Both the position numbers and the translations under genes were made by a program. DNA of 64,000 nucleotides, taken from NCBI GenBank assembly GCA_947259175.1, contig CAMYKW010000008.1:1-64000 (forward strand), read 5' to 3'. Shown piece after piece: positions 13,933-14,069 of the stretch (the first letter of the stretch is position 1; every line of letters starts with the position of its first letter). The notes beneath the pieces were generated by a model. That model saw only the letters and a list, made by a program, of their open reading frames with translations. It made no database searches and was not told where the DNA came from. The DNA is from an uncultured Gammaproteobacteria bacterium (GTDB lineage Bacteria > Pseudomonadota > Gammaproteobacteria > Arenicellales > JAANXG01).

Positions 13933-14021
13933 ATGCTTCGTATTGCCTGAAAAATCAGATAGTTTAACACAGCTTATCGGCGCCGAATGGGCGACCGCAG
14001 GGGTGTTGGCGGACCGGGTGG

Positions 14022-14037
14022 TGTTTCACGTGGAACA
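14022..14037. promoter_or_regulatory. parS-like ParB binding site 1
   Basis: The 16-mer TGTTTCACGTGGAACA is a hybrid of the two common chromosomal parS half-sites, palindromic except at one position. It lies in the dnaN-gyrB gap, about 1.2 kb from the putative oriC and 16 kb from parAB, as expected for origin-proximal centromere sites. Confidence 0.85.
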
Positions 14038-14053
14038 CACGATTCAGAGACGG

Positions 14054-14069
14054 GGTTCCACGTGAAACC
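14054..14069. promoter_or_regulatory. parS-like ParB binding site 2
   Basis: GGTTCCACGTGAAACC matches the parS core in 14 of 16 positions and touches the dnaN stop codon. It is 16 bases from site 1, so two ParB dimers could load side by side. Confidence 0.78.

Follow-up and report, generated by a model that had tools for sequence, protein, structure and literature searches.

Why should the short gap between dnaN and gyrB, from which the recombination gene recF is missing, hold two copies of a ParB centromere sequence? Within the window (the whole 64,000-base stretch of DNA that was analysed, from an uncultured gammaproteobacterium), the absence of recF from this position and the 136-base length of the gap, both put forward in the original prediction, are borne out by the coordinates (13933-14068) and by the family matches of the two flanking genes. 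The features on which the argument relies are the following:

11515-13932, minus strand: gyrB, DNA gyrase subunit B (NF011501 and TIGR01059, above the NCBIfam cut-off)
13933-14068, no strand: the 136-base dnaN-gyrB gap, which is the place of recF in recF-bearing relatives (from coordinates and comparison)
14022-14037, plus strand: gyrB-proximal parS site, TGTTTCACGTGGAACA, 1 mismatch to the parS palindrome, with core GTTTCACGTGGAAC at 14023-14036
14054-14069, plus strand: parS site at the dnaN stop codon, GGTTCCACGTGAAACC, 3 mismatches, none of them in the constant core, with core GTTCCACGTGAAAC at 14055-14068
14069-15169, minus strand: dnaN, DNA polymerase III beta clamp (TIGR00663, 353.8 bits, cut-off 137.65)
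15170-15384, no strand: AT-rich dnaA-dnaN gap, candidate oriC, with two DnaA-box-like TTATNCACA
15385-16743, minus strand: dnaA (open reading frame of 452 aa, named by reading its sequence)
30317-31096, plus strand: parA-like partition ATPase gene adjoining parB (ParA-family matches, none above a curated cut-off; best NF041546, 114.9 of 180 bits)
31093-31956, plus strand: parB/spo0J, expected reader of the parS sites (TIGR00180, 192 bits, cut-off 58.45)

The two 16-mers proved, as first described, to be separated by 16 bases, the second overlapping the final base of the dnaN stop codon. Three matches to parS with at most 3 mismatches were found in the window against 0.16 expected; the exact core, GTTNCACGTGNAAC, has two copies in the whole 4,177,666-base (4.18 Mb) genome, both of them in this gap, and a reversed control pattern of the core has none in the same genome. 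A chance origin of the pair is ruled out both by shuffling (0 of 100 shuffles reach three matches) and by the genome-wide uniqueness of the cores. From the pair it is approximately 2.7 kb to the start of dnaA and 1.1 kb to the AT-rich dnaA-dnaN gap; the origin itself is placed in that gap only tentatively, because the two DnaA-box-like matches there (15222-15230 and 15347-15355) compare with 0.84 expected in the window, which is within chance. Beyond dnaA, on the plus strand, follow rnpA, yidD, yidC and mnmE (names by reading).

The features by which a chromosomal parS is recognised, namely a canonical core, rarity together with closeness to the presumed origin, and a cognate parA-parB pair, are all found in this genome. 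Most of the predicted ParB can be aligned to chromosomal ParB chains of solved structure (best 7bnk_A, E 2.7e-53), with which it shares a GERRWRA segment. It would be expected to load on the two gap sites as CTP-dependent clamps and to spread from them, with ParA moving the origin. Across the genus the gap has diverged apart from the two parS sites and a short block before gyrB: the gyrB-proximal site is aligned and kept in all six members examined (one, L135, having 1 mismatch there), and the dnaN-proximal site has an exact core in all six. The block itself (13933-13980, GTAAA ... TTTTTCA), which adjoins gyrB and is kept across the genus in the alignment, unlike the remaining gap, is possibly a gyrB promoter or leader.

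When the 136-base gap is folded as a transcript, its energy is -45.8 kcal/mol (z -4.6) and the two sites pair with one another; an RNA role is therefore conceivable, and the inverted repeat might be read as a hairpin (an attenuator or a processing site) acting between dnaN and gyrB, with no ParB site involved. Such a reading is very improbable, since any two near-palindromic parS sites are able to pair mutually, the core has the sequence canonical for ParB and is confined to this gap, a single site is all that is found in 11 of the 28 recF-less gaps that hold a core (described below), and both orientation and spacing differ among the loci with two cores. Neither a terminator-like site nor an Rfam match was found in the gap; a terminator or riboswitch was accordingly rejected, the hairpin being explained by the two near-palindromes.

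The fate of recF was addressed with a RecF-family search of the whole genome, which returned four matches, all of them short, confined to the end of the profile that covers ATP binding, and far below the cut-off of 172 bits (the best scores 27.7). No recF above the family cut-off was found anywhere in this 121-contig draft, which is 97.7% complete. Of the two fates proposed in the original prediction, loss or relocation, it is loss that stands: the gene is absent (no match at E 1e-20) from 107 of the 109 genomes of the order, and, within the limits set by a genome 97.7% complete and by the 109 order members, a relocated recF is excluded. A fragmented draft invites the objection that recF is present, and was missed through an assembly gap or strong divergence; that objection has little to recommend it, since the locus is unbroken within contig C8, the same absence recurs throughout the order, and the same search was positive in 9 of 14 control genomes, E. 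coli included.

The two exceptions in the order were considered individually. One draft (G025) has a recF contig plus its own recF-less dnaN-parS-parS-gyrB locus on another contig, and its recF is on that account evidently contamination; its two dnaN-gyrB loci (L295, G025:C309, and L006, G025:C361), one with recF and one without, could mislead counts of presence and absence. In the other (G085), the gyrB on the recF contig is 66% identical to that of the window, where other order members mostly reach at least 74%, and the genome holds two parS cores beyond those on its recF contig; this contig is probably foreign.

A genome-wide search for recO and recR, which had been suggested along with the original prediction, found both genes in the source genome above their family cut-offs, and among the 31 relatives searched (source genome included) recO is present in 31 and recR in 30. 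The source genome thereby resembles recF-less bacteria that employ RecOR, such as Helicobacter and Campylobacter (PMC12192639), and RecA loading at gaps would run on RecO-RecR. A survey published in 2005 had already recorded 29 genomes without recF (PMC1193525). The loss is common to the order and, on a rough tree, to a larger clade, rather than peculiar to the source genome, and a missing recF by itself is ordinary for the group. The published accounts of recF-less RecOR bacteria are, in the portions available, silent on parS, whereas the loss described here leaves a centromere in its scar. The point of interest is that bond between recF and the centromere.

That parS can lie within recF is known from Pseudomonas aeruginosa, where parS1 and parS2 were reported inside the gene (PMC5521831, PMC3909081) and ParB was found bound at parS by ChIP-seq (PMC5098823). 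As far as these accounts describe it, that locus and the present one have in common a canonical parS sequence, a place between dnaN and gyrB, two sites, and parAB nearby. Unlike P. aeruginosa, which keeps recF and two further bound parS sites, the source genome has no recF frame within which parS could lie; its sites are intergenic, start 32 bases apart (at 14022 and 14054), and are accompanied by no further exact site.

Comparison with recF-bearing relatives showed that most of the recF genes sampled have parS inside them, as in Pseudomonas. A class sample was assembled from 60 regions of a class-wide recF list; because these were among the best-scoring entries of that list, the sample leans towards typical RecF. 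One locus (L222), in which recF is cut off, was omitted from the tally, leaving 59 complete genes. Both cores are present in 47 of these, the middle one only in 4, the C-terminal one only in 3, and neither in 5, so that 54 of 59 hold at least one. The sites lie in the same frame at approximately base 404-425 and approximately 31-61 bases before the end of the gene; no exact core was found at any other place within the 59 genes, save a further core in L280, in a different frame within the last codons. In total these genes contain 101 cores, against a mean of 7.06 and a maximum of 13 in 200 synonymous codon shuffles.

The core within recF encodes x-Phe-His-Val-Glu/Lys. When the class sample was combined with the named loci, 184 of 194 FHV[EK] motifs were found to be written with CAC-GTG, where 14% would be expected from background codon use; the base preceding the motif is G in 193 of 194 and the base following it is C in all 194. 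Since the codons and their flanking bases are near-invariant, it is the DNA word that is conserved, and not the peptide alone. The missing recF and the parS pair had been noted originally as two separate oddities; the comparison of the locus in relatives, which had also been suggested, shows instead that they are connected, with parS lying inside recF where that gene is present, and one or two sites lying in the dnaN-gyrB gap where it is not.

The behavior of these sites when recF is absent was followed in 370 genomes of the class that are at least 90% complete, 73 of which gave no recF match. That count may in part reflect assembly gaps, because gyrB was found in 56 of the 73 and the other 17 gave none at the threshold used. 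Upstream regions were taken for 55 recF-less loci (that of the source genome was not taken again), and the gap was treated as measurable where dnaN and gyrB run in the same direction and are separated by at most 1200 bases; this left 38 loci, with 17 of the 55 dropped for want of dnaN or for a gap above 1200 bases. At least one exact core is present in 28 of the 38 gaps, and two or more in 17, against a chance expectation of approximately 0.0004 in their 7506 bases. The 10 gaps with no exact core include those of reduced genomes and of the families of L200, L213 and L214.

Within the order, all 26 gaps of at most 1200 bases hold parS, L114 is a further locus with the sites, its gap being longer, and the 30 order loci also include three stray single cores elsewhere; since these loci were taken for holding a core, they show where the sites lie and not how frequent they are. 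No exact core at all is found in 20 of the 109 order genomes. Six more regions were examined, and all have parS sites. The first core begins 0-2 bases from the dnaN stop in 10 of the 26 loci. Pairs are spaced at 23 to 106 bases, with a single exception of 722 in which there is an insert; the list of spacings retains duplicate loci (L029=L196, L037=L258, L038=L190 and L105=L197, and, by handle, L110=L175, L122=L170 and L123=L178), and helical phasing is not evident from it by eye.

Tight pairs are found in 27 of the 370 class genomes: 15 of the 73 that are recF-less, against 12 of the 297 that bear recF. In 10 of those 12 recF-bearing genomes the pair is at the 3' end of recF, one site falling within the final codons and the other at the stop or immediately after it, which is the arrangement that deletion of the remaining recF would leave. 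No recF-derived sequence beyond parS is recognisable in translations of the recF-less gaps, and it is consequently from position alone that descent of the kept sites from recF-internal ones is argued.

A quick tree was built from 350 columns of DnaN and GyrB for 109 rows (31 of 140 rows having been dropped because part of DnaN or GyrB was missing, and the duplicate loci L029/L196 and L110/L175 having been included). At least 13 changes of recF state are required on it, against a mean of 36.5 with shuffled labels, and well-supported branches alone force 5. The order of the source genome falls within a clade of 30 rows, all of them without recF (SH-aLRT 95), beside Acidiferrobacteraceae HyVt-429 and Muproteobacteria; the nearest named gyrB is that of Acidiferrobacteraceae HyVt-429 (68%), which belongs to another order and is identical in sequence to G202. 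The alignment is short and the branches long, such that gain and loss are not separable on the tree itself; the changes are read mainly as losses because genomes of the class commonly have recF. In two families (f95 and f128) both conditions occur, one member having recF with sites inside the gene and others lacking recF and having sites in the gap; in f128 both intragenic sites are present in the member with recF, and a single site is present in the residual gap of those without it.

The gap sites might have a separate history, in which the recF-gyrB neighbourhood is favoured for a centromere and new sites arose there after recF had been lost. Such a history would account for the lack of any surviving recF flank around the sites and for their variable spacing; a hot spot of parS-carrying transposon insertion over recF-gyrB in Caulobacter, left unexplained in the part of the account available (PMC5815017), is in keeping with it, as is an array of 12 parS copies before gyrB in G208. 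It is nevertheless an unlikely history, since recF-bearing genomes already have sites there, including tight pairs, which lie at the 3' end of recF in 10 of the 12 genomes that have them, and since f128 contains both states, two intragenic sites with recF and one residual-gap site without it.

Taken together, these comparisons lead us to infer that the gap is probably a bare ParB centromere close to the origin, which has survived the loss of recF, the gene that hosted it, with the following order of events: (i) a recF-bearing ancestor would have carried two parS sites within recF, with a third immediately after its stop in some lineages, so that a single stretch of DNA served the RecF protein and ParB alike; and (ii) recF would have been deleted in an ancestor of the order and its neighbouring families, with the site or sites alone kept, often against the dnaN stop. 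It is proposed that only parS was kept at the deletion because ParB still needed parS beside the origin; the two sites in the window would then be descendants of those once inside recF.

With somewhat less assurance, the same interpretation may be extended to the class as a whole, in which a ParB centromere is likely to be dual-coded in recF, the parS sequence dictating two Phe-His-Val-Glu/Lys patches of the protein, with the two functions separable in both directions. The centromere would be the stricter constraint on the locus, because recF persists without the sites in lineages that lack par genes, and one or two sites persist in several lineages from which recF has been lost. The former direction is illustrated by 13 recF genes from Enterobacterales, Pasteurellaceae and Orbaceae (E. 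coli included), in all of which together a single core is left; E. coli RecF has FHNE and FTVE at the two parS places, such that the peptide too has drifted. Enterobacteriaceae and Pasteurellaceae are reported to be without par genes (PMC3909081). Among the other 57 complete recF genes of the named gyrB set, both cores are present in 35, one or the other in 6 and 5, and none in 11.

If this reading is correct, a missing recF becomes a natural experiment. Where a repair gene contains the main centromere, mutations of recF and of parS are not separable in study, and part of the apparent conservation of the RecF protein would be conservation of a DNA site. Repeated losses of recF that keep parS would reveal which function the locus cannot lack, and recF-free genomes would offer an origin-proximal centromere open to clean editing. 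A published account of class-wide embedding of parS in recF, or of its survival after recF loss, was not found among the sources available, the main parS survey (Livny et al. 2007) lying outside the literature search; class-wide embedding may for that reason already be known.

Several additional loci bear on the decay of the gene or its sites. A recF fossil was sought in the window gap, where the dnaN-proximal site reads FHVEPRL-stop, and was rejected, the other gaps having no shared RecF tail after FHV[EK][HQ]. L187 (G398) was rejected as a half-deleted recF when sister recF proteins failed to match it, and the scrambled recF pieces of L190 (G285), perhaps an assembly product, were not used as evidence. 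In L168 (G201, family f105), whose sister genomes have intact recF, the gene has decayed and has a gap inside it, and a parS with one mismatch occupies the usual middle position. Several Vibrio and Shewanella recF genes keep FHVE and write its His as CAT; at the C-terminal site this breaks the parS core in L053, L071, L078, L084, L093, L100 and L102, and in most of these CAT-coded Vibrio-type and other genes the middle site drifts. Such coding may mark a centromere that has moved elsewhere. The twelve exact parS cores upstream of gyrB in recF-less G208 (family f112; L156 1287-1773, G208:C48, also L181) form tandem units of approximately 43 bases, and its relative G313 has recF, with a parS pair at the 3' end of that gene.
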